From: Arcobacteraceae bacterium | GTDB taxonomy: Bacteria > Campylobacterota > Campylobacteria > Campylobacterales > Arcobacteraceae | Assembly (NCBI GenBank): GCA_023138835.1 | Contig: JAGLOP010000002.1 | Coordinates: 124,001 to 188,000 of the forward strand | Length of the DNA: 64,000 bases | Reading direction: 5' to 3' | Part shown: positions 5,380 to 24,334 of the stretch, piece after piece | Layout: the number at the start of each line of letters is the position of its first letter | Numbering within the stretch: position 1 is the stretch's first letter | Notes under the pieces: generated by a model | The model's input: only the letters and a program-made list of their open reading frames with translations | What the model was told of the DNA's origin: nothing | The model's database searches: none | Translations under genes and position numbers: made by a program

Positions 5380-6178
5380 TGCTGATTTAAAATATCTTAT
5401 AAGGTCAGGTTCTTTTAAGTTTATGAAAGATCGAACAAACAAATCTCATAGTTTAGAAAGTTATTATTATATGGGGAAGCCAGTATATTACCGTACAAGT
5501 ACCAGTGATATGATGATTATTCATGAGATTTTACTTAAAAAAGATTATAAAGCAGAGTATTGGTTACCTAAGGAGATTGAGCCAGAAGTTATATTAGATA
5601 TTGGTGGCAATATTGGTATTACATCAATTTATCTTACTAATAGATTTCCAAATGCTAAAATATTTACTTTTGAGCCAGTACCACAAAACTTTGAGATTTT
5701 AAAAAAGAATACTGAACAATATAAAAATATAAAAATCTTTAATGTTGGACTAGGGTCCCAAGATGGTAGTTTTGATATATTTATGAGCGAAGATAGTGAT
5801 AACTTTGGAGGAGCTTCTTTATATATAGAAGCTGGTGGAGTTAATACTGATACAAAAGTAACTTGTCAAATAAGAAATGCAAATGATATATTAGCTGAAA
5901 TTGGAGTATCAAATATTGATCTACTTAAAATTGATACAGAAGGTGCTGAATATGATATTTTAATGAGTATTGATAAAGAATTATTAAAACAAGTTAAATG
6001 GATTACAGGAGAACTACACGGTTATAAAGATTTTGAACTTTTGAATTATTTAGAAAGTTTAGATTTTAGTATAGGTATGAAAAAAGCTCTTGATAATAGA
6101 TTATTTATGTTTCATTGTGCCAAACAAAATGTAATAGATAAGCTTAGTAAAAAAGATAAAAAGAATTTAATTAAATAA
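5372..6178 (+). CDS. FkbM family SAM-dependent methyltransferase
   Basis: The 268-residue protein has SAM motif I 'VILDIGGNIGITSIYL' (about 69-84), the acidic motif II FTFEPVPQNFEIL and the FkbM-typical 'LLKIDTEGAEYDIL'. Such enzymes O-methylate sugars or polyketides, and in LPS clusters they usually cap or decorate a sugar hydroxyl. It overlaps the preceding GT9 gene by eight bases, so it is part of the LPS operon. Substrate unknown. Confidence 0.85.
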   Translation: MNSADLKYLIRSGSFKFMKDRTNKSHSLESYYYMGKPVYYRTSTSDMMIIHEILLKKDYKAEYWLPKEIEPEVILDIGGNIGITSIYLTNRFPNAKIFTFEPVPQNFEILKKNTEQYKNIKIFNVGLGSQDGSFDIFMSEDSDNFGGASLYIEAGGVNTDTKVTCQIRNANDILAEIGVSNIDLLKIDTEGAEYDILMSIDKELLKQVKWITGELHGYKDFELLNYLESLDFSIGMKKALDNRLFMFHCAKQNVIDKLSKKDKKNLIK

Positions 6179-12397: not shown

Positions 12398-13006
12398 ATG
12401 AGTTTAGATAATTTTATAAATAGATTAATCGATGAAAACTATAGAACTTCCTTTTCTGATATTATTAAAGAAATTCTGCTAGAAAAAGAAAAAATAACAT
12501 TTTTTAAAGATTTGGAAGACGATGAAATAAAGTTATTGTTAGAAAATGTTATTTTAAAAAGATTTTTGCCAAATGAAATCATTTTTTCTCAAGGTGAAGA
12601 CAAAGATGACTATATGTATTATATAGTCAACGGTAGCGTAAAGGTCATGAACAAGTCTAAAAATGGTCTATTAAGAAAAATCATAACCTTACATAAATCT
12701 ACATTACTTGGTGAAATGAAACCTATTTTAAAAGAAGGAAGAACTGCTACATGTATTGCAGGAGTAGATGGTGCTATTGCTATTGGGTTCACTATAAAAG
12801 AAGATATCAAGCAACCTGCAAAAGTTTATGAAAAGTTTTATAAAAATGTATCTAAAATTTTAATACAAAAACTTCAAGAAGAGAATATTGAGTTTACAAT
12901 AGAAAAAAATAATACTTCTGATACCAAATCGGCGATTCAATATTATAAAGATATCTCTTTTATTCTTGCAAAGAAACTTCAAGACAATAATAAGAATTTA
13001 TATTAA
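12398..13006 (+). CDS. Cyclic-nucleotide-binding-domain protein without DNA-binding domain
   Basis: The 202-residue protein has one Crp/Fnr-type CAP_ED beta-barrel at about 25-145: 'FFKDLEDDEIKLLLENV', then IFSQGEDKDDYMYYIVNGSV and 'LLGEMKPILKEGRTATC'. The glycine-glutamate block GEM matches the phosphate-binding cassette region. The C-terminal part is helical and has no helix-turn-helix, so it is not a normal Crp-type regulator. Ligand (cNMP or other) is unknown. AGAGGAG precedes the start, 33 bases after htpG, so co-transcription with htpG is possible. Confidence 0.75.
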   Translation: MSLDNFINRLIDENYRTSFSDIIKEILLEKEKITFFKDLEDDEIKLLLENVILKRFLPNEIIFSQGEDKDDYMYYIVNGSVKVMNKSKNGLLRKIITLHKSTLLGEMKPILKEGRTATCIAGVDGAIAIGFTIKEDIKQPAKVYEKFYKNVSKILIQKLQEENIEFTIEKNNTSDTKSAIQYYKDISFILAKKLQDNNKNLY

Positions 13007-13026: not shown

Positions 13027-14430
13027 TTGATAAATAGATTTAATTTTTATTTTCCTATTATAGTAACTACCTTATTTTTAAATCATATGATAGTTACTCT
13101 TTTTATTTTAGATACATATAATTATAATATAACCAGGATATCTATTAATATTTTACTATCCATATTTATTTTATACTACACAATCTTACATTTTGACAAA
13201 GTAAAGAACACACTTTTAAAATACAAATTACTTTTTATTCTATTTTTAATACCAATTTTACAATCTTTTTTATCACCATATATAACCACAAACATTGAGT
13301 TTAATCAACATATACTAATTGGTATTACCTATATAACTATAATATTCACCGTTATATTTCTATATCAAAATGTGGTCAAAGTTTCTATAATCAAACTTTT
13401 ATATACTATTGCTCTTCTTAATATAATTATATTTGGTTTTCTTTTTTTATATCATTATTTCTCATCTATTACAAATAATTTTGAAGATACCGTAGATTTG
13501 TTTTTTAATAATATAAGATTTTTAAGCCATTTACAAACTATATTTATACCTTTATTACTTTATTTCTTTATTATTATCAAAAATAAATCTAGTAAAGTTG
13601 TAATTCTTTTAATATTAGTTATAAACTTTTATATATTATTTTATTTAGGCAGTAGAGGATCAATTTATACTATTGCCATATCTTCTGTTATAATATATTT
13701 TACAAGTACAGCTAAAATAAAAAAACAATTAATTCTTTTATTATTTATTGCTATATTTAGTTTTATTTTATATTATCTGGCAAACAACTTTTTTATAGAA
13801 TCTGCACAATTTAAATCTTTATCACATCTTCAAACATTTAATAGTAGTGGAAGAGGTTTTATATTTTCTACTATCATATCTCTTATATTTGATACTAAAC
13901 ATATATTTAGTGCTGTTGGTTTTTCATCACAATCTATTGGAGTAACCGGCTCGCTTCATCCTCATAATCTATTTTTATACATATTTTTAGGATTTGGCAC
14001 ACTGGGATTTATTATAGTTTCTACAATATTTATTAGATATTGTATATTATTGTGGAATATTTATAGAGATAAACAAACTACAAAACATACATATTTAATG
14101 TTTTCATTTTTATCTATATTAACCCATTCTATGGTTAGCGGTTTGTATATAATGCCGCTGACAAGCATATTGTTAATTTATATATTTATAGTAATAAACA
14201 GAACTTACTTTGTTAATATTCCAAAACAAAATCAACATATTTCATGGTTAGGTAGTAAAATTATATATACTATATTACTTTTAATATCTTTATCAAATAT
14301 ATATTATCTTCAGCAAAACACTAAACTAGTTAAAGAATATTTTTATATCAAGGAACAACTGCAAAATAAAAAGCTACCTAAAAGTAATGTTTCTGGTATT
14401 ATGCTAATTAGCAGGCAAATTTACAACTAA
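13027..14430 (+). CDS. O-antigen ligase / polymerase family membrane protein
   Basis: The 467-residue, very hydrophobic protein has about ten or more membrane spans. The Wzy_C/WaaL-type landmarks are GSRGSIYTIA, then SGRGFIFSTI and a periplasmic loop ending HPHNLFLYIFLGFGTLG, whose conserved histidine pair is characteristic. Such proteins join O-antigen to lipid A-core or polymerise O-units at the periplasmic face. It lies outside the LPS operon, behind htpG and the CAP_ED gene. The start is taken as TTG 13027 with a weak ribosome-binding site (AAAGA). Ligase versus polymerase cannot be decided. Confidence 0.75.
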   Translation: MINRFNFYFPIIVTTLFLNHMIVTLFILDTYNYNITRISINILLSIFILYYTILHFDKVKNTLLKYKLLFILFLIPILQSFLSPYITTNIEFNQHILIGITYITIIFTVIFLYQNVVKVSIIKLLYTIALLNIIIFGFLFLYHYFSSITNNFEDTVDLFFNNIRFLSHLQTIFIPLLLYFFIIIKNKSSKVVILLILVINFYILFYLGSRGSIYTIAISSVIIYFTSTAKIKKQLILLLFIAIFSFILYYLANNFFIESAQFKSLSHLQTFNSSGRGFIFSTIISLIFDTKHIFSAVGFSSQSIGVTGSLHPHNLFLYIFLGFGTLGFIIVSTIFIRYCILLWNIYRDKQTTKHTYLMFSFLSILTHSMVSGLYIMPLTSILLIYIFIVINRTYFVNIPKQNQHISWLGSKIIYTILLLISLSNIYYLQQNTKLVKEYFYIKEQLQNKKLPKSNVSGIMLISRQIYN

Positions 14431-14463
14431 ACTATAAAACTAAGTAATATTTAAGTTTACCTA

Positions 14464-14472
14464 TGTGATAAT
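14464..14472 (+). promoter_or_regulatory. Extended -10 promoter of the Tad locus, overlapped by a palindrome
   Basis: TGTGATAAT is an extended -10 (TGn plus GATAAT) with TTTAAGTTT about a dozen bases upstream, matching the periodic AT-rich -35 zone of Campylobacterota promoters. Transcription would start near 14479, just before the riboswitch aptamer. The -10 hexamer lies inside the perfect 12-base palindrome TGATAATTATCA (14466-14477), a possible operator. Confidence 0.55.
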
Positions 14473-14481
14473 TATCATAGT

Positions 14482-14562
14482 TAAAATTTATGGCCAAACT
14501 TATTGTGAAGTAAGGACGGAAAGCTGCGGGTCTTTGTTTAAATTAAGATAGCCGGGTTGCAA
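14482..14562 (+). ncRNA. Class I cyclic-di-GMP (GEMM) riboswitch aptamer upstream of the Tad pilus genes
   Basis: The order of conserved GEMM-I elements is visible. GGCCAAAC (14492-14499) leads into a hairpin, CTTATT/AGTAAG (14499-14514), capped by the GNRA tetraloop GTGA. This is followed by GGACGGAAAGC (14514-14524, consensus GGACGCAAAGC). The second hairpin pairs TCTT (14531-14534) with AAGA (14545-14548) plus GG with CC around a short bulge where the tetraloop receptor is expected. The closing GCCGGGTTGC ends at 14560. It lies in the leader of the Flp pilus operon, about 110 bases before the pilin gene, so c-di-GMP probably controls pilus expression. c-di-GMP versus the cGAMP-sensing variant was not resolved. 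Confidence 0.8.
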
Positions 14563-14672
14563 TTAAACCAGTCACATTTATTGTGTGCTGCTCAATTTAC
14601 AATCCACTTACTTTTTTTATTCATTTTCTTTAAGTTTTATAATTTTACAAAATTTTACTCAAGGAGAAAAAG
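14563..14672 (+). promoter_or_regulatory. Riboswitch expression platform and pilin leader
   Basis: This stretch contains no gene. CTTACTT at 14607-14613 runs into seven T residues (14612-14618) and is exactly complementary to AAGTAAG at 14508-14514 inside the aptamer's first hairpin. Ligand-stabilised and alternative pairings could therefore exclude each other. This switching scheme is inference. AAGGAG at 14661-14666 is the pilin ribosome-binding site. Confidence 0.4.
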
Positions 14673-14861
14673 ATGTTAGAATTTTTAAAAAGAAGATTAA
14701 AAAGTGAAAAAGGTGCAATGGATAAAATCCTTGTTACATTATTGTTGGTTATTGTTGGTATTGGTGCAGTTGTTGGTCTAAGTACTTGGATGACTTCTAC
14801 AACTCAAGACTTAAAAGATGATGCGAATACAACTCTTACAGATTTAAAAGCTAACGGTTAA
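14673..14861 (+). CDS. flp: Flp-type major pilin precursor (atypical processing site)
   Basis: The 62-residue protein has a short basic leader (MLEFLKRRLKSEKG), then AMDKILVTLLLVIVG and a second hydrophobic stretch, with a small polar tail. This is the size and layout of Tad/Flp pilins cut by a TadV/CpaA peptidase after Gly14. The usual Flp Glu at +5 and Tyr at +6 are absent; instead there is Asp at +3 after the predicted cut. A strong AAGGAG site precedes it. It is the first gene of the Tad locus and lies directly behind the c-di-GMP aptamer. Confidence 0.8.
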   Translation: MLEFLKRRLKSEKGAMDKILVTLLLVIVGIGAVVGLSTWMTSTTQDLKDDANTTLTDLKANG

Positions 14862-14912: not shown

Positions 14913-15347
14913 ATGTTTTTAACGACTTTTTATATATTTTCTCTTTTATTATCGTACACTGATTACAAAAGGTTTATTGTTCCAAATAATATATTATTAT
15001 CAATGTTAATAATGTTACTTTTTACAGGAATAATAGAAGATAAAATCTATATAAGTTCAGTAGTGGTACCTTTAATTGTACTTTTGTTGTTTATAGTTTT
15101 ATTACTGTTAAATCCAAAAATGATATTAGGCGGTGGGGATATAAAGTATATAATGATAGTATCATTTTATCTTCCATGGACATTATTTCCACTTTTTTTA
15201 ATAGTTACAGGTACTTTACAAACTTTTTCTTTATTATATATTCAAATTATAAAGAAAAGAAGAATAGTTGCAATGGTGCCTGTGATGTTTATATCTGCAA
15301 TAATCACTGAGATTATTCAATACTATGGGTTTAATCCATTAGGATAG
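14913..15347 (+). CDS. tadV: TadV/CpaA prepilin peptidase (A24 aspartic protease)
   Basis: The 144-residue membrane protein is of the short TadV type without the N-methyltransferase domain. The two catalytic aspartates are visible: Asp17 in SYTDYKRFIVPN and Asp76 in GGGDIKY. Four or more hydrophobic spans surround them. It would cut the leader from the pilin just upstream and from the pseudopilins in this locus. Its ribosome-binding site is weak and follows the inter-gene hairpin closely, which suggests lower expression than the pilin. Confidence 0.88.
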   Translation: MFLTTFYIFSLLLSYTDYKRFIVPNNILLSMLIMLLFTGIIEDKIYISSVVVPLIVLLLFIVLLLLNPKMILGGGDIKYIMIVSFYLPWTLFPLFLIVTGTLQTFSLLYIQIIKKRRIVAMVPVMFISAIITEIIQYYGFNPLG

Positions 15348-15358
15348 GAGGATTTTTT

Positions 15359-16402
15359 ATGAAACCGAATATGAAAAAAGCTTTTATCGACCAAATTTTA
15401 TTTGGTTTATTTCTTATAGCTACAGTTTTTGTTTTTATTGCAACAGTTAGTGATGAATTAAAAACAAGAAATAAATTTACTAGCTTAAAACAAATAGTAC
15501 AAACATCAGTATTAAGTGCATCTAAGTACTATATAAATGAAAATAATGACACTGCTGAAGCACAAAACATAGCATTGGGAATTATTGAGCAATCACAACT
15601 AGGAGCTGAAGTTAAAGATAGAATTGAGTTTACTTGGGATTTTGTATCTGACCCAAGTAATGTTGTAGCTAAAATAGAGAATTATGAAGAAGATATGTTT
15701 TGGTATCGATTATTAGGATGGGATAGTTATACTTTTGACTTAATTGAAGCAAAGGCAAATATAATTTTAACTCCAATGGATGAACTGCCAATTCTAGATG
15801 AAGTATCTGACTTTATGCCTTTTGCGATTAATGAGTGCGGACAAGAGGAGGATAGTCTTCTTCCCGGAGAAAGTCTATCATTTATATATAAACCGTATGA
15901 TATTTATGATTCAAATGAAAGTACAGGTTTTTATGGTTTAAGATCAGATGATCCAGATAGGAATGAGGCACAAAATGATTTTGCTCACTTTAAAAATGAA
16001 GTATCTGATTTTAATAGGGTTGATGAACAACAATACTTAGTCAACTCAACTTTAGATAGTATTGAAAATGATGCTTCTCAATTATCATCAGCATTGGAAG
16101 TAAAACAATTTGATGAACCACTTAGTATCAGTATAGCATTAATTGATTGCAGCAGTACAAAGGATAATATAGTTATATCAAATTTGATACAAGTCAGTAT
16201 GACAAATATTTATTGTGGATTGAAAAGTACTGATGAGTCTCTAGTGACAGATGCATTTGAAGATCAAACAGGTGATGTATTTGACAGTAGTATCACTTGG
16301 ATAACTTGGACTGAGGATAATGATTGTTCTCAAAGTGGATTATTTAGAATTGATCTTGATATTACAATACCTGAAGAGGAAACTATTATATTAGAATATT
16401 AG
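15359..16402 (+). CDS. TadE/TadG-like pseudopilin-type protein
   Basis: The 347-residue protein has one N-terminal membrane segment (about 16-30) after MKPNMKKAFIDQIL, and the rest is predicted to be outside the cytoplasm with few cysteines. The KKAFIDQIL block mirrors the pilin (KGAMDKIL) and the smaller protein at 22588 (RKAVIDQIL), suggesting processing by TadV after Ala. No catalytic motif was recognised. By position and layout it is a minor pilus or tip component of the TadE/F/G class. The large variable extracytoplasmic part might contact surfaces. The function is inferred from context. Confidence 0.6.
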   Translation: MKPNMKKAFIDQILFGLFLIATVFVFIATVSDELKTRNKFTSLKQIVQTSVLSASKYYINENNDTAEAQNIALGIIEQSQLGAEVKDRIEFTWDFVSDPSNVVAKIENYEEDMFWYRLLGWDSYTFDLIEAKANIILTPMDELPILDEVSDFMPFAINECGQEEDSLLPGESLSFIYKPYDIYDSNESTGFYGLRSDDPDRNEAQNDFAHFKNEVSDFNRVDEQQYLVNSTLDSIENDASQLSSALEVKQFDEPLSISIALIDCSSTKDNIVISNLIQVSMTNIYCGLKSTDESLVTDAFEDQTGDVFDSSITWITWTEDNDCSQSGLFRIDLDITIPEEETIILEY

Positions 16403-16459: not shown

Positions 16460-18049
16460 ATGACATTAGATTCATATCAGATAAATATTAATGAACAAAA
16501 AGAATTAGATATTCGGAAAGAAGATTTAGTGGAGGTATTAAAGTTTTATGTATTGTTTTCAGATATAACAAAACTCTCTTTTTACGAATATAATTATGAA
16601 GTGAATAACTTCACTTATGATTTTAGTGTAGATAGTCAAAATAAACTAACTGAAGAATCTGACCAAATAAATATGGAAGACAGTGCCTATTCAATAATTA
16701 TAGAGGACAGTAACACTGTTTACGGTATGATCACTTTCAATGAAAATCCAGGTTCTACAGATATAGCAAATAAATTATTAGAAAAAATAAAAGTTATTTT
16801 AAGAAAACAATTTAAAATTAGAAAAGAACTATTACTACAAGAATCTACTTTAGATATTTATATTATTTCAGATGAAAAGAGTAAGCACTTTGCTAATTTA
16901 CTCAATGAAAATTTAAATGTTCAATTAAATGTAAATATTAAAATGGAAACTTCTGTTGCTTCGATTGCTGATATATTAAAAGAAAAAATTAAAAAAAGTA
17001 TTTTAATTTATACTATAGAAGATATATCTTTATTGAAACTTGACGAAGGAATATTACAATTATTAAATGAAGTTTTAATTGTAATTGGTCCAAATAACTA
17101 TGACTTATCTTTGTTTTGTGGACATTTAGATGTTTATAAATATTTATCTAAAGAAGACTTTACCCCTGAAGAATTAAAAAATATAATTATTGAAAGTAAA
17201 AATAAACTTCACAATAAATATATTAATAAAAATAAAATCATAGCCTTATCCGGTATATCCGGTGGTATTGGTACAACAACAGCATCTATGAATATTGCAA
17301 ACTTATTAGCAAAAAGAAACCCTGAGGAAAATATTTTATATATAGATTTATCAAAAACTAAATCTATTAGTAATCTGTTTTTAGATAAAAATCCTTTGCC
17401 AAAGAAAACGATCATTGACCTTGTAAATAGTAATGAGTTTGATTTAGAAAAAAATTTGGAAAATGGATTAGTGAAAATTCGTGAAAATTTCTTTGCAATA
17501 AACGGTATTCAAAAACATATTGATGGTGAGTTTTTAGAGCAACCGGTTTTTATTGATAAATTACTTGAATATATATCAATTGTAAGTTCAAACTTTAATT
17601 TTATAATTATAGACACAGGTGAGGCAGATGCCTCTGCTTTAGACTCTACTATATATGATATTTCTAATGAATTATGGATACTGACAGAGATGTCATTACC
17701 ACATATTTCTAAGTTAAAGACATTCTTTTCTTTAATGAAGAGAGCCGGACTAAAAGATAAATTGTCATTTATAGTAAGCCGATATGATTCTGCTAATGCT
17801 ATTTCTGTTGCAGATGTAACCTCAATACTCAATACGGCCAATGAAGATCATTTAAATTTTAACTTTAAATTACCAAATGAATACAGCATATTGGGTCATA
17901 GCTGGAATTATTGTGAATTAGTTACAGATACACATCCAAAATCAACTTATGTTCAAACTTTAGAAAGTATTTTAATAGCTAAAAAACTTTATAAAAAAGA
18001 GATTAAAAAAGAAACCAAATCAATCTCATGGTTATCATTCTTAAAGTAA
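16460..18049 (+). CDS. tadZ: TadZ/CpaE-like pilus localisation ATPase
   Basis: The 529-residue protein has an N-terminal atypical receiver-like region and a MinD/ParA-like domain from about 258. The P-loop is GISGGIGTTT (265-274), a deviant Walker A in which both the signature and the catalytic-loop lysines are replaced (Ser and Thr). Then come ILYIDLSKTKSI and 'FIIIDTGEADASALDS'. TadZ/CpaE proteins mark the pole or site of pilus assembly and often have degenerate P-loops. AAGGAA precedes the ATG, and a 57-base gap before it contains no other gene. Confidence 0.85.
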   Translation: MTLDSYQININEQKELDIRKEDLVEVLKFYVLFSDITKLSFYEYNYEVNNFTYDFSVDSQNKLTEESDQINMEDSAYSIIIEDSNTVYGMITFNENPGSTDIANKLLEKIKVILRKQFKIRKELLLQESTLDIYIISDEKSKHFANLLNENLNVQLNVNIKMETSVASIADILKEKIKKSILIYTIEDISLLKLDEGILQLLNEVLIVIGPNNYDLSLFCGHLDVYKYLSKEDFTPEELKNIIIESKNKLHNKYINKNKIIALSGISGGIGTTTASMNIANLLAKRNPEENILYIDLSKTKSISNLFLDKNPLPKKTIIDLVNSNEFDLEKNLENGLVKIRENFFAINGIQKHIDGEFLEQPVFIDKLLEYISIVSSNFNFIIIDTGEADASALDSTIYDISNELWILTEMSLPHISKLKTFFSLMKRAGLKDKLSFIVSRYDSANAISVADVTSILNTANEDHLNFNFKLPNEYSILGHSWNYCELVTDTHPKSTYVQTLESILIAKKLYKKEIKKETKSISWLSFLK

Positions 18050-18059
18050 GGGAAAAAAG

Positions 18060-19655
18060 TTGCGAAATTTAAGAGATATTATTAAAGACCATGAAGACAA
18101 AGTAGAGATTGAAGAAAATATAAGCAGTGCTTTAGAAGAAGAACCTTCTATTATCCAAAATAAAAATAAAATTAAAAAAACTCAACAAAAAAGTCAAAAC
18201 GATATTTTACAATTTTCACAACTATATCTTGATGATAAACTAATGGATATAGCAGTAAAAGTAAATGACCATTTTTTATTAAATTTAAAGTCAGACAAGA
18301 AAATTACAAGAGACAGTTTAGAAGATGTATTACCAGAATTTATTTTAAGTTTTCCAGATTGTAGAATTTTAGAAAAAAATATTTTAGAAGATATTAAACA
18401 GTATATTATAAATAATATTATTGGTTTAGGTATTATAACAACTTTATTTGAACTAGCAAAAGATGGACTTAATGATGTAATAGTAAATACTAAAGATTAT
18501 GTAGATATTATTTATAACGGTAAAACTATTGAAACTCCAATGAAATTCAGAAGTGAAGAGGAGTTGAGAAAGATAATTGATAAAATGCTTGCACAAAATA
18601 ATAGAAAAATTGACGAAGCGCACCCAATTATTTCAAGTAAACTAAATGATGGTTCAAGAGTTGAAGTTCAAATACCACCAATTGCTGCTAATAACGGAAG
18701 CTGTATAACTATAAGAAAGTTTAATGATTTACCACTTTTATTAGAGATGCTTATAGAATCTGGTCAAATGGATTATAAAATGGCTTATTTTTTAATCAAA
18801 TTATCAAAAGGTAAGTGTAATATTATAGTTTCTGGAGGAACATCAAGCGGTAAAACAACTTTTTTAAATGCAATTACCAGGTTTATAGAAGACAATGAAC
18901 AACTGATGGTGATAGAAGATACAAGAGAGATGCAACCGCAAATGCCATGCCATTTGGTTCGTTCTTATGAAGCAAGGATGGCAAATGAAGAGGGCAAAGG
19001 TGCTGTTTCGCTTGACTTTTTATTAAGATCAGCTTTACGGTCTAGTCCCAGAAGAATTATTGTTGGAGAGTGTAGAGGACCTGAAATTGTAGTTATGCTA
19101 AATGCTATGAATACAGGACATCCTGGATCCATGACAACTGTGCATGCGGATAATACAAAAGAAGCTTTGGTTAGGGTTGAAAATATGTATTTGGAAGCTA
19201 GACCGACTGCTAGTATCGGTTTTATACGAGCTCAGGTTGTATCTGCTATTGATGTAATTATTCAGTTAGTTAGATTTCCAGACGGTAGTAGAAAACTTAT
19301 AACTATATCAGAAGTTGAAAAAAGAATGGAAGATAATGGCGTAATATCTTTAAACCATATTTTCAAATTTGAAAGAGATACCTCTGATATGAAAAAGACA
19401 AAAGGTGAATTTCAAGTACTTGCAAGTCCAAGCAGAACAATTGAACAGATGAATATGTTTGGTGTTGATATCGATAAAAGAATTTTTAATCCTGATTTTG
19501 AGATGACAAAACAAATGTTAATTGATGAATTAAGAAAAGATTTACCATCACAAATGTGTGGCTGGAAAGATGAGCATTTAAAAGAGTTTATAAGAAAAGA
19601 CCCTCAGGTTTTACATAAATGGCCGCATTTTAATGAGATAAAAAAGGTAGATTAG
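18060..19655 (+). CDS. tadA: TadA/CpaF pilus assembly ATPase
   Basis: The 531-residue protein is a type IV filament/T2SS secretion ATPase. It has Walker A GGTSSGKTTFL (259-269), the Asp box VIEDTREMQ (about 284-292), Walker B RRIIVGECRG (331-340) and the His box GHPGSMTTVHAD (353-364). It powers both extension and retraction of Tad pili at the cytoplasmic face. The start is TTG at 18060 with AAGGGA nearby. It abuts tadB. A long charged N-terminal tail of about 50 residues precedes the conserved region. Confidence 0.95.
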   Translation: MRNLRDIIKDHEDKVEIEENISSALEEEPSIIQNKNKIKKTQQKSQNDILQFSQLYLDDKLMDIAVKVNDHFLLNLKSDKKITRDSLEDVLPEFILSFPDCRILEKNILEDIKQYIINNIIGLGIITTLFELAKDGLNDVIVNTKDYVDIIYNGKTIETPMKFRSEEELRKIIDKMLAQNNRKIDEAHPIISSKLNDGSRVEVQIPPIAANNGSCITIRKFNDLPLLLEMLIESGQMDYKMAYFLIKLSKGKCNIIVSGGTSSGKTTFLNAITRFIEDNEQLMVIEDTREMQPQMPCHLVRSYEARMANEEGKGAVSLDFLLRSALRSSPRRIIVGECRGPEIVVMLNAMNTGHPGSMTTVHADNTKEALVRVENMYLEARPTASIGFIRAQVVSAIDVIIQLVRFPDGSRKLITISEVEKRMEDNGVISLNHIFKFERDTSDMKKTKGEFQVLASPSRTIEQMNMFGVDIDKRIFNPDFEMTKQMLIDELRKDLPSQMCGWKDEHLKEFIRKDPQVLHKWPHFNEIKKVD

Positions 19656-20594
19656 ATGATAATTACAGATAATATGGTACTTTTATTTATAATTTGCATA
19701 CCAATACTAATAGTTACACTATCATACTTCACATTTCAATTATACAGTGAATATAATCAAAAAAAGGTTATGATAAATATATTATCAGACTCAACACAAC
19801 ATATATTAGAGAATAAAAAAACTCATATCGTAAGTGATAAAAAAACCAGTTTTCTAAAAGATAAACTGAATTTTGCCGGTTTTCCAAATATATATGCAGA
19901 ATATGTATTTATAGGTATATCTATCTCTTTTGGTATTTTGGTTGGTTTTTTTATATTTATTGTTATGAAGTCTCCAATTGCACTTGTTGTATCAGTCTTA
20001 GTTTTTTCATTCTTACCTTTTCTCGTCTTGGGTAAGATTATCGCTAATAGGCAAGTAGATTTTAATTTTGGGTTAAAAAGTATTATCGATAAAGTTACAA
20101 GCATGATGAAAAGTGGTGTTGGTTTTGAGCAAGCATTTAAAAAATCAATTCTTACAAGTAAATCAGAATTTACAAAAGAGGTCTTTGGTATATATATAAA
20201 AGAAAAAGATATAATTGGTGAAGATAGGGCATTTGAAAAAATGTTTAAACTTGTTGAGTCGAAAGAACTTCGTATATTCTATCTTGTAATTTCAATTGGT
20301 AGACAATCTGGTGGTAAATTTTCAAATACTTTGGAGACTTTAAGAAAAACTTTACATGACCAAGGGACAATAAAGCAGGAAATAACATCTTCTACAAAAG
20401 AAATAAGAATAGGTACTTATATGATTATTGCCTTAACCATAGGTATTTTCATGATGATGGATAGTGTATTTAAAGGTGTATTAAATGAACATTTCTTTGG
20501 TACTTCTGACGGAAAGCTACAAATGTTTTTTATTATTATTTGGGTAGCTTTTGGACTGTTTATCAATAATATGATGACAAAAATAAAGGAGTAA
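19656..20594 (+). CDS. tadB: TadB-like inner-membrane platform protein
   Basis: The 312-residue protein has the T2SSF (GspF-type) domain. One N-terminal span, two central spans, a cytoplasmic helical part with 'SMMKSGVGFEQAFKKS' and SIGRQSGGKFSNTLETLRKT, and two C-terminal spans can be seen. TadB and TadC form the inner-membrane platform that couples the TadA ATPase to pilin insertion. It starts one base after the tadA stop. Confidence 0.88.
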   Translation: MIITDNMVLLFIICIPILIVTLSYFTFQLYSEYNQKKVMINILSDSTQHILENKKTHIVSDKKTSFLKDKLNFAGFPNIYAEYVFIGISISFGILVGFFIFIVMKSPIALVVSVLVFSFLPFLVLGKIIANRQVDFNFGLKSIIDKVTSMMKSGVGFEQAFKKSILTSKSEFTKEVFGIYIKEKDIIGEDRAFEKMFKLVESKELRIFYLVISIGRQSGGKFSNTLETLRKTLHDQGTIKQEITSSTKEIRIGTYMIIALTIGIFMMMDSVFKGVLNEHFFGTSDGKLQMFFIIIWVAFGLFINNMMTKIKE

Positions 20595-20597
20595 ACT

Positions 20598-21431
20598 ATG
20601 TGGTATATTATTTTATTAGGGCCTCCTGCACTTATCATATTAGCTATTACAGTTTTTTATATAATTCAAAGAAGACAAAGACAAAAAAATATTATATTGC
20701 TATCAAGACTTGATGTAGCAGGTATTGTTACTCAACAACAGAAAATTAAGAAAACAGACGAAAATACATTAAATCTTAATTTAATACAAGCAGGAATTAC
20801 TCTGAAAGAATATACTGAAGCAAGATTTATATTTGCACTCATTGGAGTAATTTTAATGATAGCATTACCTTTACTATTCTCCTTGACAGTTGGAGCAATT
20901 GGTGTTGCTGTGGGTATAATATGTATTATTTTTGGTGGTCAGATATATATATCAATAGCTAAAGGTGAAAGAACAGAAAAAATAAATAAAGATTTAGGTA
21001 CATTCCTAGATCTTGTTAATGTTATATTAGAAGCAGGAGGCAGTCTTAAAAATGCTTTTTTTACTGTTTCTACAAAGGCAAAAAATATTGTAGATGATGA
21101 ATTACTTAAAGAGATTAGTATTTTAGAATATGAGATGACAAACTATAGTACTAAGCAAGCATATGAAAATCTTAAAAAAAGAGTTGACAGTGAGGAAATG
21201 GGTAAAATTGTTGACTTCTTAATATTAAGTGAAGAGACAGGTATTGGTGTAAAAAATATATTTACAACACAATCAGAAGAGATGAGACAAGAAAAATTTT
21301 ATACAATCAAAGGTAAAGTAAGTACTTTAAATATGTATTTAATGATTGTAATATTTATATTTGTTTTACCGGCAGTTGGGGCATTTATAGTATTTCCAAT
21401 GCGAGCCGGCGCTTTAGCAACTGGATTTTAA
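20598..21431 (+). CDS. tadC: TadC-like inner-membrane platform protein
   Basis: This 277-residue GspF-domain paralogue of TadB begins three bases after it, behind AAAGGAG. Its conserved cytoplasmic part contains LDLVNVILEAGGSLKNAF and the C-terminal copy motif 'FLILSEETGIGVKNIF'. Spans lie at about 4-22, 75-120 and 245-270. It should pair with TadB in the pilus assembly platform. Confidence 0.87.
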   Translation: MWYIILLGPPALIILAITVFYIIQRRQRQKNIILLSRLDVAGIVTQQQKIKKTDENTLNLNLIQAGITLKEYTEARFIFALIGVILMIALPLLFSLTVGAIGVAVGIICIIFGGQIYISIAKGERTEKINKDLGTFLDLVNVILEAGGSLKNAFFTVSTKAKNIVDDELLKEISILEYEMTNYSTKQAYENLKKRVDSEEMGKIVDFLILSEETGIGVKNIFTTQSEEMRQEKFYTIKGKVSTLNMYLMIVIFIFVLPAVGAFIVFPMRAGALATGF

Positions 21432-21444
21432 AAAAGGATATTTA

Positions 21445-22584
21445 ATGAAATTTAATAAACAAATAATTATTGTACTGGTATTATCATCACTACTCTTATC
21501 AGCACTTGGTGCAGCATTCTATTTTTATAAACAAAATAAAAAAGCTTTAGTCGATAATGATCAATTACGAATAGTATATGTTGCAGCAAAAGATATTAAG
21601 AAAAATATCAAAATAGAAAAAAAACATCTTAAGCAAGTTCAAATTGCAAAGAAATATGTATTAACAACTCCTTTACTGGAAAAAGAAATAATTGGTAAGT
21701 TTACAAAAGAAAATATCTATACAAATGATATATTTAGAAAAGAAAAACTTGTAAAAGAGTTGCTGATAAAAAAAGAAACTCCATCAGTTATTGATAATTA
21801 TAAATTCAATAGTTACAATATCGCATTTAGACTATTTAAAAATCCAAACTATTCACTAAAAAAAGGTGATACTATAAATATAATCTCTGTATATCCTGCG
21901 ACCCTTGTAAAAGGCAATGGTTCACCAAATTCTGTGCAGTATGTTGCAAATAAAATTAAAATTATAGGATTTCTCAGAGATGGTAAAGAAACTGATAAAA
22001 CGATAAAAAAAGTTAAAATAACAAGAACAGTTAAAAAGAAAACTGTAACTGAAGAAGTTGAAATTAAAGCACAGGAATTGATACTGGATATTGACAATAA
22101 AGTTTTATTATCATTAACAGATGATTATAACAGAGGAGCTCAGCTTTGGATGGTAAAAACTAAAAAACTAGAAGCAAAAACTAAAAAGAAAGTTATTCAA
22201 AAAAGCAGCAGTAAAAAGATAAAAAGAAATTATCCGATAAAACTATACAAACCAAGAGACAGTTACAATAATTTAAAAGCAACTATTCATTATGCAGACC
22301 AAAAAGATGCTGCATTGACAAAAAGTAAAACTATTAAAATTGACGCAAGTAAACTTTGTCAAAACAATAATTTATTTTTATTAGGTATCTCAAATAAAGT
22401 TCATTTACGTACTGGCCCTACAATTAGAAATAAAATTGCAAGAATCGTATATAGAAACTATATTATTCCACAAAATGGAAAAGTTAATAAAAAATGGTAT
22501 AAAACTTGTGATGGTTATTATGTTCACACATTAGAAGTAAAAGAGATTAGTAAAAAATTCGCTTTAAAGAAACTTGGAAAATAG
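21445..22584 (+). CDS. rcpC: RcpC/CpaB-like periplasmic pilus protein with SAF and C-terminal SH3-like region
   Basis: The 379-residue protein has an N-terminal anchor (about 7-27), then the SAF domain region 'LRIVYVAAKDIKKNIKIEKK' typical of CpaB/RcpC. A lysine-rich linker follows, and the C-terminal 60 residues 'KVHLRTGPTIRNKIARIV...KWYKTCDGYYVH' look like a bacterial SH3 domain. CpaB proteins link the outer-membrane secretin to the inner-membrane machine and may touch peptidoglycan; an SH3-like end fits that. The SH3 call is by pattern only. Confidence 0.8.
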   Translation: MKFNKQIIIVLVLSSLLLSALGAAFYFYKQNKKALVDNDQLRIVYVAAKDIKKNIKIEKKHLKQVQIAKKYVLTTPLLEKEIIGKFTKENIYTNDIFRKEKLVKELLIKKETPSVIDNYKFNSYNIAFRLFKNPNYSLKKGDTINIISVYPATLVKGNGSPNSVQYVANKIKIIGFLRDGKETDKTIKKVKITRTVKKKTVTEEVEIKAQELILDIDNKVLLSLTDDYNRGAQLWMVKTKKLEAKTKKKVIQKSSSKKIKRNYPIKLYKPRDSYNNLKATIHYADQKDAALTKSKTIKIDASKLCQNNNLFLLGISNKVHLRTGPTIRNKIARIVYRNYIIPQNGKVNKKWYKTCDGYYVHTLEVKEISKKFALKKLGK

Positions 22585-22587
22585 ATT

Positions 22588-22992
22588 ATGAGAAAAGCAG
22601 TTATTGACCAAATTTTATTATGGATTGTACTTTTTGTATCATTTGTGACAATATTTTATTTTGTAATTGATTATTATAATATAATTAAAGCAAAAGATAA
22701 ATGTGATGCATTGGCTAATTATGGTGTTAGAATGAAAGCACTTGGAAAAAGTGACAGTGATATCGTAATTGGTTTAAATAGCCTTAAAGGTAGTTATTTT
22801 GCAACAATATATGATGCTAATTTAACTTGTACAGCATTGGCAACAGAACAGTATCAGGTCATATTTACTACTAATATAACTTTTAAAAATCAATTTTTAG
22901 AAGATGGAGAAAAGATTTATTCTATTGCAACTGCATTTAATGAAGTAAGTTCAACTGATCAAAACTGTACTTTAGATTTAAGTACACAATAA
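22588..22992 (+). CDS. TadE/TadF-like small pseudopilin
   Basis: The 134-residue protein has one N-terminal hydrophobic segment (about 9-27) after MRKAVIDQILLW, and three cysteines in the remaining part (residues C33, C71 and C130). The N terminus is clearly related to the 347-residue protein of this locus and to the pilin motif. TadE and TadF are pseudopilins cut by TadV and needed for pilus assembly in Aggregatibacter. The name is assigned by context and shape; no family-specific motif was seen beyond this. Confidence 0.6.
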   Translation: MRKAVIDQILLWIVLFVSFVTIFYFVIDYYNIIKAKDKCDALANYGVRMKALGKSDSDIVIGLNSLKGSYFATIYDANLTCTALATEQYQVIFTTNITFKNQFLEDGEKIYSIATAFNEVSSTDQNCTLDLSTQ

Positions 22993-23005: not shown

Positions 23006-24334
23006 ATGAAAAATATCATAACAATCTTATTGATTTTTACACTAACACTATTAGGAAGTGAAAAAAACAATTATACAATTCAAGAACAAGATCTTAATGG
23101 AAAAACAATAACAATAGAAAATGACAATTATAAAATATTTAAATTTAGTAAAAGAATTACAGATATAAGATTAAGTAAAAGTGATATATTAAGTGTAATT
23201 TTTTTAGAAGATAAAAAGAATCCATTATCTAAAATCAAAATATTTGCCAAAAAAATCGGTACGGCTAATGCTTTGATTACTTTTAGTGATAAAACAACAA
23301 ACCTTATCTATTTTAATGTTACATCAGACATAAGAGATATTAGATTACTTATTAATGATATTAATAAGGATATAAAAATAACTCAAATTAACGATAATGT
23401 TATATTAAAAGGAAAAGTAAAAAACAATAAAATTAAAAATAAAATTTTACTTCTACTAAAAGATGCTTTACCTAATGCTAAAGTTATTGATTTAATGACA
23501 GTTGAACATCCCGATAAGATGGTAAGACTTAAGTTGTATGTTGTTGAGATAAATAATAATGAAGGTGAAACAATAAAAAACAATTGGTCATTTACAGGTT
23601 ATAATAAAGGTTCAACTTCTATTGATATAACATCAAGTATGTTAAATGCAGTTACATTATCTGGCGGGATTACTGCAGTAGCAAATAATTTAGGTAGTTC
23701 TTTTAATACAGGGCTTACTTTAAATTATCTAAAAACAAATGATGTTGCTAACATTTTAGATGAAACAACTTTAATTACATTAGAAAATAAAGCATCTAAT
23801 TTTTTAGCTGGGGGAACATTATTAATCGAGACATCAGGTGTATCGGCGGATGGTCAACCAATAACAACAATCTCTGAAGTGACTTATGGATTAGAGCTTA
23901 ATATTAATGTAGTAGAGATTACAAATGGTAAGTATGTAAATTTAGAAATCGATACCAGTTCTTCAACCTTAGATTCAGCAAATGGTGTAGGAAGCATGCC
24001 TGCAAAAAAAGAAAAATCCATTAAAACCAATGTAATAATTGAGGATCAAGCCACTATAGTTTTAGGTGGTCTTATTAGTAATACCAATTCAAAAGATTGG
24101 GAAAAAATACCATTTTTAGGTGATATACCGATTATTGGAAAACTATTCCAAAGTAAGGCGTTTAGGGAAGGTAAAAGTGAATTAATATTTTTTATTACAC
24201 CAACAATTATCTCTACTGAATCAAATAATCAAGTTTCACAATATACAAAACTTAAAGATAGGATTATTAAAACTAAAAAATCAACTAACGAAGAGCTCCA
24301 TAAACAAAGAGTAAAAGATATACTTGATATATAA
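23006..24334 (+). CDS. rcpA: RcpA/CpaC-like outer-membrane secretin
   Basis: The 442-residue protein has a signal peptide (MKNIITILLIFTLTLLGS). It is followed by the pilus-secretin N-terminal domain (about 25-105, 'SKRITDIRLSKSDILSVIF') and a BON-like stretch, then the secretin domain. The signature IVLGGLISNTNSKDWEKIP with FLGDIPIIGKLFQSK lies near 350-385. It forms the outer-membrane ring through which Flp pili pass. The length is typical of CpaC. AAAGGA precedes the start. It closes the Tad locus. Confidence 0.92.
   Translation: MKNIITILLIFTLTLLGSEKNNYTIQEQDLNGKTITIENDNYKIFKFSKRITDIRLSKSDILSVIFLEDKKNPLSKIKIFAKKIGTANALITFSDKTTNLIYFNVTSDIRDIRLLINDINKDIKITQINDNVILKGKVKNNKIKNKILLLLKDALPNAKVIDLMTVEHPDKMVRLKLYVVEINNNEGETIKNNWSFTGYNKGSTSIDITSSMLNAVTLSGGITAVANNLGSSFNTGLTLNYLKTNDVANILDETTLITLENKASNFLAGGTLLIETSGVSADGQPITTISEVTYGLELNINVVEITNGKYVNLEIDTSSSTLDSANGVGSMPAKKEKSIKTNVIIEDQATIVLGGLISNTNSKDWEKIPFLGDIPIIGKLFQSKAFREGKSELIFFITPTIISTESNNQVSQYTKLKDRIIKTKKSTNEELHKQRVKDILDI

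Follow-up and report, generated by a model that had tools for sequence, protein, structure and literature searches.

The leader of the flp-tad mRNA begins with a class I c-di-GMP riboswitch aptamer, located at positions 14483-14564 on the forward strand. Computation directly showed this aptamer with its covariation and position, and found it before flp in six species. It is a new instance of a known riboswitch class, and the novelty lies in the Tad target and in the regulon. With a probability of roughly 70%, we propose that this c-di-GMP-I riboswitch switches the Tad locus ON at high c-di-GMP and that a sister aptamer at the flagellin gene acts in the opposite direction.

The aptamer in the flp leader

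The window, i.e. the whole 64-kb stretch of DNA that was analysed, was searched with cmscan against Rfam 15 at the gathering threshold. The aptamer was assigned to the c-di-GMP-I family (RF01051) with a score of 62 bits (cut-off: 35 bits) and an E-value of 1e-9, calculated for the 64-kb window and 4227 families. The alignment covers the full model (positions 1-87/87), and this is the sole Rfam match in the window. An earlier note had described a GEMM-I aptamer at 14464-14672. All motifs which it listed were found there in the right order, and the assignment stands. The aptamer proper is shorter than 14464-14672, which represents the whole leader. The stretch containing this leader is bounded by an O-antigen-ligase-like gene upstream (ending at 14430) and by flp downstream (starting at 14673). 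The loop of P2 (GUGA, 14505-14508) is a GNRA loop. The 21-46 pair of the family is swapped from G-C to C-G (GGCCAAAC ... GACGG); since this changes both sides, the pairing is retained.

Covariation was assessed in 28 aptamers of the family-level group, comprising six from the own genome and 22 from relatives. Across this set, the P2/P3 model with its 19 pairs is 99.2% paired and shows two-sided changes in 10/19 pairs and 51 cells. The shuffled means were 5.0 pairs and 14.0 cells, the observed values were reached by none of 500 shuffles, and slid registers gave just 0-2 two-sided pairs. Both stems thus carry compensatory changes in the relatives. Together, the model match and the P2/P3 covariation take away two of the three outcomes that the earlier note had named as speaking against its proposal.

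Table 1 Features of the flp leader and the Tad locus, with the further genomic sites of the promoter-like box.
Feature	Position	Strand	Basis
Promoter-like box TTAAGTTTACCTATGTGATAATT, extended -10-like	14451-14473	+	Conserved in six Tad leaders
c-di-GMP-I (GEMM-I) riboswitch aptamer	14483-14564	+	RF01051, 62 bits; covariation
GGCCAAAC	14492-14499	+	Motif in sequence
G20 equivalent, ligand contact	14493	+	Rfam alignment; invariant G in 28 aptamers
P2 stem, hairpin CUUAUU-GUGA-AGUAAG, GUGA tetraloop	14499-14514	+	Rfam alignment; covariation
GGACGGAAAGC	14514-14524	+	Motif in sequence
A47 equivalent, ligand contact	14520	+	Rfam alignment
P3 stem, second hairpin, asymmetric bulges	14522-14558	+	Rfam alignment; covariation
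GCCGGGTTGC	14551-14560	+	Motif in sequence
C92 equivalent, pairs with second guanine of c-di-GMP	14560	+	Rfam alignment
Putative expression platform	14565-14665	+	Sequence and folding
Platform hairpin	14570-14591	+	Sequence and folding
CAATCC, can pair with aptamer GGGTTG	14601-14606	+	Sequence and folding
U7 run	14613-14619	+	Sequence
SD AAGGAG	14662-14667	+	Sequence
flp, Flp-type pilin, 62 aa, KSEKGAMDKI prepilin-like motif	14673-14861	+	Motif and synteny with relatives
tadV prepilin peptidase (Peptidase_A24)	14913-15347	+	Domain match
tadE/G-like pseudopilin	15359-16402	+	Position and synteny only
tadZ (AAA_31)	16460-18049	+	Domain match
tadA ATPase	18060-19655	+	T2SSE 153 bits; TadA family TIGR03819 231 bits, under its cut-off
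tadB and tadC	19656-21431	+	T2SSF each
cpaB/rcpC-like	21445-22584	+	Weak SAF and TIGR03177 matches; motif and synteny
Second tadE-like pseudopilin	22588-22992	+	Position and synteny
rcpA/cpaC secretin	23006-24334	+	Secretin 125 bits
23-nt box, further site	C18:5569-5591	+	
23-nt box, further site	C24:115203-115225	-	
23-nt box, further site	C3:30821-30843	-	

The Tad locus, its relatives and the regulon

The aptamer lies upstream of flp, the first gene of the Tad locus, on the same strand and with 108 nt between its end and the gene, so that position and direction suit a control of the pilin, as had been argued before. The identity of the locus as Tad/Flp also holds, since Flp, TadV, TadZ, TadA, TadB/TadC and the secretin are found in a single cluster. 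The Flp, TadE and CpaB calls are based on motif and synteny, and the flp product gave no Flp match in Pfam or NCBIfam. Tad pili are organelles of surface attachment. Upstream of the locus, a gene at 12398-13006 (+) encodes a 202-aa protein with a cyclic-nucleotide-binding domain, for which Pfam gave no DNA-binding domain.

Within the family-level group of 104 genomes (Arcobacter, Halarcobacter, Aliarcobacter and similar), RF01051 is present in 19 genomes, and TadA relatives with 65-82% identity occur in 27. Six species from four genera, own included, carry the aptamer directly before flp, followed by the Tad cluster in the same order (genomes G000, G038, G055, G061, G091 and G095). The comparison of Tad leaders suggested in the earlier note thus revealed five further species in which the aptamer-flp-tad order is kept. 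The Rfam search gave no aptamer in 17 sister Tad regions, of which 14 have a readable flp leader. Outside the family, neither the aptamer nor any other Rfam riboswitch was found in 12 further Tad regions, a number of which are truncated by contig ends. Inspection of other flp genes for aptamer remnants gave no plausible core with a partner motif. The only other Rfam riboswitch in the aptamer-less sister Tad regions is a guanidine-II match near one such Tad locus (L101, 1362-1404, minus strand), distant from flp. The two other species of the own genus have no aptamer and only distant TadA matches. In the final TadA tree, which was built without the G064 row, the aptamer-bearing loci occupy two separate places (G000 versus the five others), and two gains or losses are therefore needed.

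Order-wide, the aptamer was found in 76/399 genomes with up to 10 copies per genome, showing that the RNA is common there and that the unusual part is its Tad target. Several other features of these aptamers were observed. Some Campylobacterales, such as G224, G361, G376 and G441, carry 10 c-di-GMP-I aptamers each. Within the family-level group, predicted membrane proteins of 57-84 aa, belonging to two families and encoded immediately 3' of the aptamer, are recurrent targets (L003, L007, L008, L009; L014, L019, L021-L024). At L082, L092 and L094 (genomes G038, G091 and G095), the aptamer precedes a conserved ORF of 33-40 codons (MRTxxxxGxK...) that is not directly followed by any obvious longer gene, and the aptamer of L092 (G091:C1:1091764-1091841, minus strand) precedes two secreted proteins which are DUF1800- and DUF1501-like by eye.

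The own genome contains six c-di-GMP-I aptamers, whose targets were assigned by position. Besides the one at the Tad locus, one aptamer stands before a flagellin gene (Flagellin_N, 99 bits), behind which lies a small flagellar-rod-like gene. Two aptamers in tandem precede the genes of a 133-aa protein and of a subtilase lipoprotein with 1297 aa, which are divergent from flagellin. The remaining two belong to an outer-membrane protein that is beta-barrel-like (weak Pfam match) and to a membrane protein of 59 aa. On C18 (L079), three aptamers lie inside 500 bp, one on the flagellin side (5383-5461, minus strand) and two in tandem (5600-5678 and 5760-5837, both plus strand). Judging from the 33 GGDEF and 11 EAL domain matches in this genome, c-di-GMP is very likely synthesised and broken down in this bacterium.

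About 30 nt 5' of the aptamer, a box with the consensus TTAAG..T....ATGTGAYAATT is common to 6/6 Tad leaders. Four sites with at most one mismatch occur in the own genome, compared to 0 for the reversed control. Three of the four precede aptamers, namely those of the Tad locus, the first subtilase aptamer and the outer-membrane protein; the fourth precedes a putative membrane sensor gene. The box resembles an extended -10 element and would place a putative transcription start near 14478-14480. Its TGTGA halves also look like a CRP/FNR-type site, possibly the target of a shared regulator.

Ligand, direction of control and alternative readings

Regarding the mode of action, we infer c-di-GMP binding in the cell as well as the direction and the mechanism on the Tad locus. 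At high c-di-GMP, the leader RNA would fold around its ligand, and the bound aptamer would keep its 3' arm from the downstream sequence. This would permit expression of the pilus operon, most likely via an avoided premature transcription arrest. The downstream complement to the aptamer 3' strand fits such an ON switch, in which the ligand keeps the 3' arm occupied. A precedent is the ON-type pilM riboswitch of Geobacter, where aptamer and terminator are mutually exclusive (PMC9262584). According to folding energies, three or four of the six Tad leaders have a downstream segment that competes with the aptamer 3' arm: the anti-aptamer pairing energy beats shuffles in G055 and G061 (0/200) and in G095 (p=0.02), is borderline in G038 (0.055), and is no better than shuffles in G091 (0.20) and in the leader of the window (p=0.80). 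A stricter, contiguous-stem test of the anti-aptamer arm across the six leaders was not significant (p=0.14). No intrinsic terminator was called in the flp leader. The U7 run was considered as a terminator tail and rejected, as it starts 6 nt beyond the candidate stem and is missing in the five relatives. Overall, we lean towards ON as the direction on the Tad locus.

For the flagellin aptamer, the folding model points to the opposite action. Here, forcing the aptamer lowers the modelled SD accessibility from 0.53 to 0.21, and a GACUCUU segment has two possible pairing partners, the P3 5' strand (-6.7 kcal/mol) and the SD (-6.5 kcal/mol; duplex energies). Most likely, the ligand would hide the ribosome site in this leader, with the anti-SD segment covering it (OFF logic).

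In one alternative, the c-di-GMP-I riboswitch is genuine but switches the Tad locus OFF at high c-di-GMP, either by Rho-dependent termination or by a hidden ribosome site. Consistent with this, the forced aptamer reduces the modelled SD accessibility from 0.56 to 0.21 in G095, and the leaders of flagellin and of several small membrane proteins of the family follow the same trend. However, the accessibility is unchanged in 5/6 Tad leaders, and the idea that the ligand hides the flp ribosome site was rejected on these grounds; several Tad leaders also contain sequence complementary to the aptamer 3' arm, which suits ON better. In addition, c-di-GMP is known to promote attachment organelles in general. 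In C. difficile, the type IV pili are likewise turned on (PMC6200980), and we regard the OFF direction as rather unlikely. The aptamer could also be a relic which kept its fold and lost control over the Tad locus. The window has no clear expression platform and most sister Tad loci manage without an aptamer, but the core and the contact residues are conserved, compensatory changes are present, and six species from four genera have retained the aptamer before flp together with the conserved box upstream of it, all of which renders a relic improbable.

A further question is the identity of the ligand. In cGAMP variants, position 20 is usually an A. The equivalent position is a G in 28/28 aptamers, and the A that marks GEMM-Ib is found in none of them, which favours c-di-GMP over cGAMP, as position 20 represents a factor of ligand selectivity (PMC9262584). 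It is true that cGAMP riboswitches have the same fold (PMC8835794) and that RF01051 does not set cGAMP sensors apart, but with the invariant G at this position an aptamer sensing 3',3'-cGAMP (GEMM-Ib) or both dinucleotides appears highly improbable. The sequence speaks for c-di-GMP as the predicted ligand; G20, A47 and C92, whose equivalents are given in Table 1, are the residues described as ligand contacts in Vc2 and Vc1 (PMC4744006).

Relation to known systems and biological meaning

The aptamer resembles Vc1 and Vc2 of V. cholerae (GEMM-I, RF01051) in the full-length model match, P2/P3, the GNRA loop and the equivalents of G20, A47 and C92. It differs from them in its target, a Tad pilus operon, in the C-G instead of G-C pair at 21-46, and in a weak, A/U-rich P1. 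With the GEMM-I riboswitch of Geobacter pilM it has in common a pilus-related target and a 3' arm possibly shared between the aptamer and a rival downstream hairpin (ON). However, the ligand of the pilM riboswitch is cGAMP and its terminator is proven, whereas here c-di-GMP is predicted and a canonical terminator was not found. A regulatory parallel concerns C. difficile, where c-di-GMP riboswitches control flagellum and pilus oppositely (PMC6200980). As in its regulon (flgB OFF, pilA1 ON, zmpI protease), flagellar, pilus and secreted-protease targets are combined in one genome; in C. difficile, a class II riboswitch controls the pilin, which belongs to classical type IV pili, whereas here all aptamers are class I, the pilus is of the Tad type and the function is predicted.

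The full texts searched, which were mostly open-access papers, contained no description of a c-di-GMP riboswitch that controls a Tad/Flp locus, nor of one in Campylobacterota or Arcobacter; with this coverage, the result is weak evidence of absence. It agrees with the earlier note, which knew of no described case for a Tad locus in Campylobacterota.

The presence of Tad and flagellin aptamers in one genome suggests a predicted, RNA-wired swim-or-stick switch. More tentatively, and at somewhat less than even odds, class I riboswitches may wire the entire change from swimming to attachment, with Tad ON, flagellin OFF, the subtilase and the outer-membrane protein in the regulon and 3/6 aptamers sharing a rare box, as an independent counterpart of C. 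difficile. If true, a pilin mRNA sensing c-di-GMP directly would represent a short link from second messenger to attachment, and with flagellin and pilus in one six-aptamer regulon, a swim-or-stick switch at the RNA level can be tested directly in Campylobacterota.
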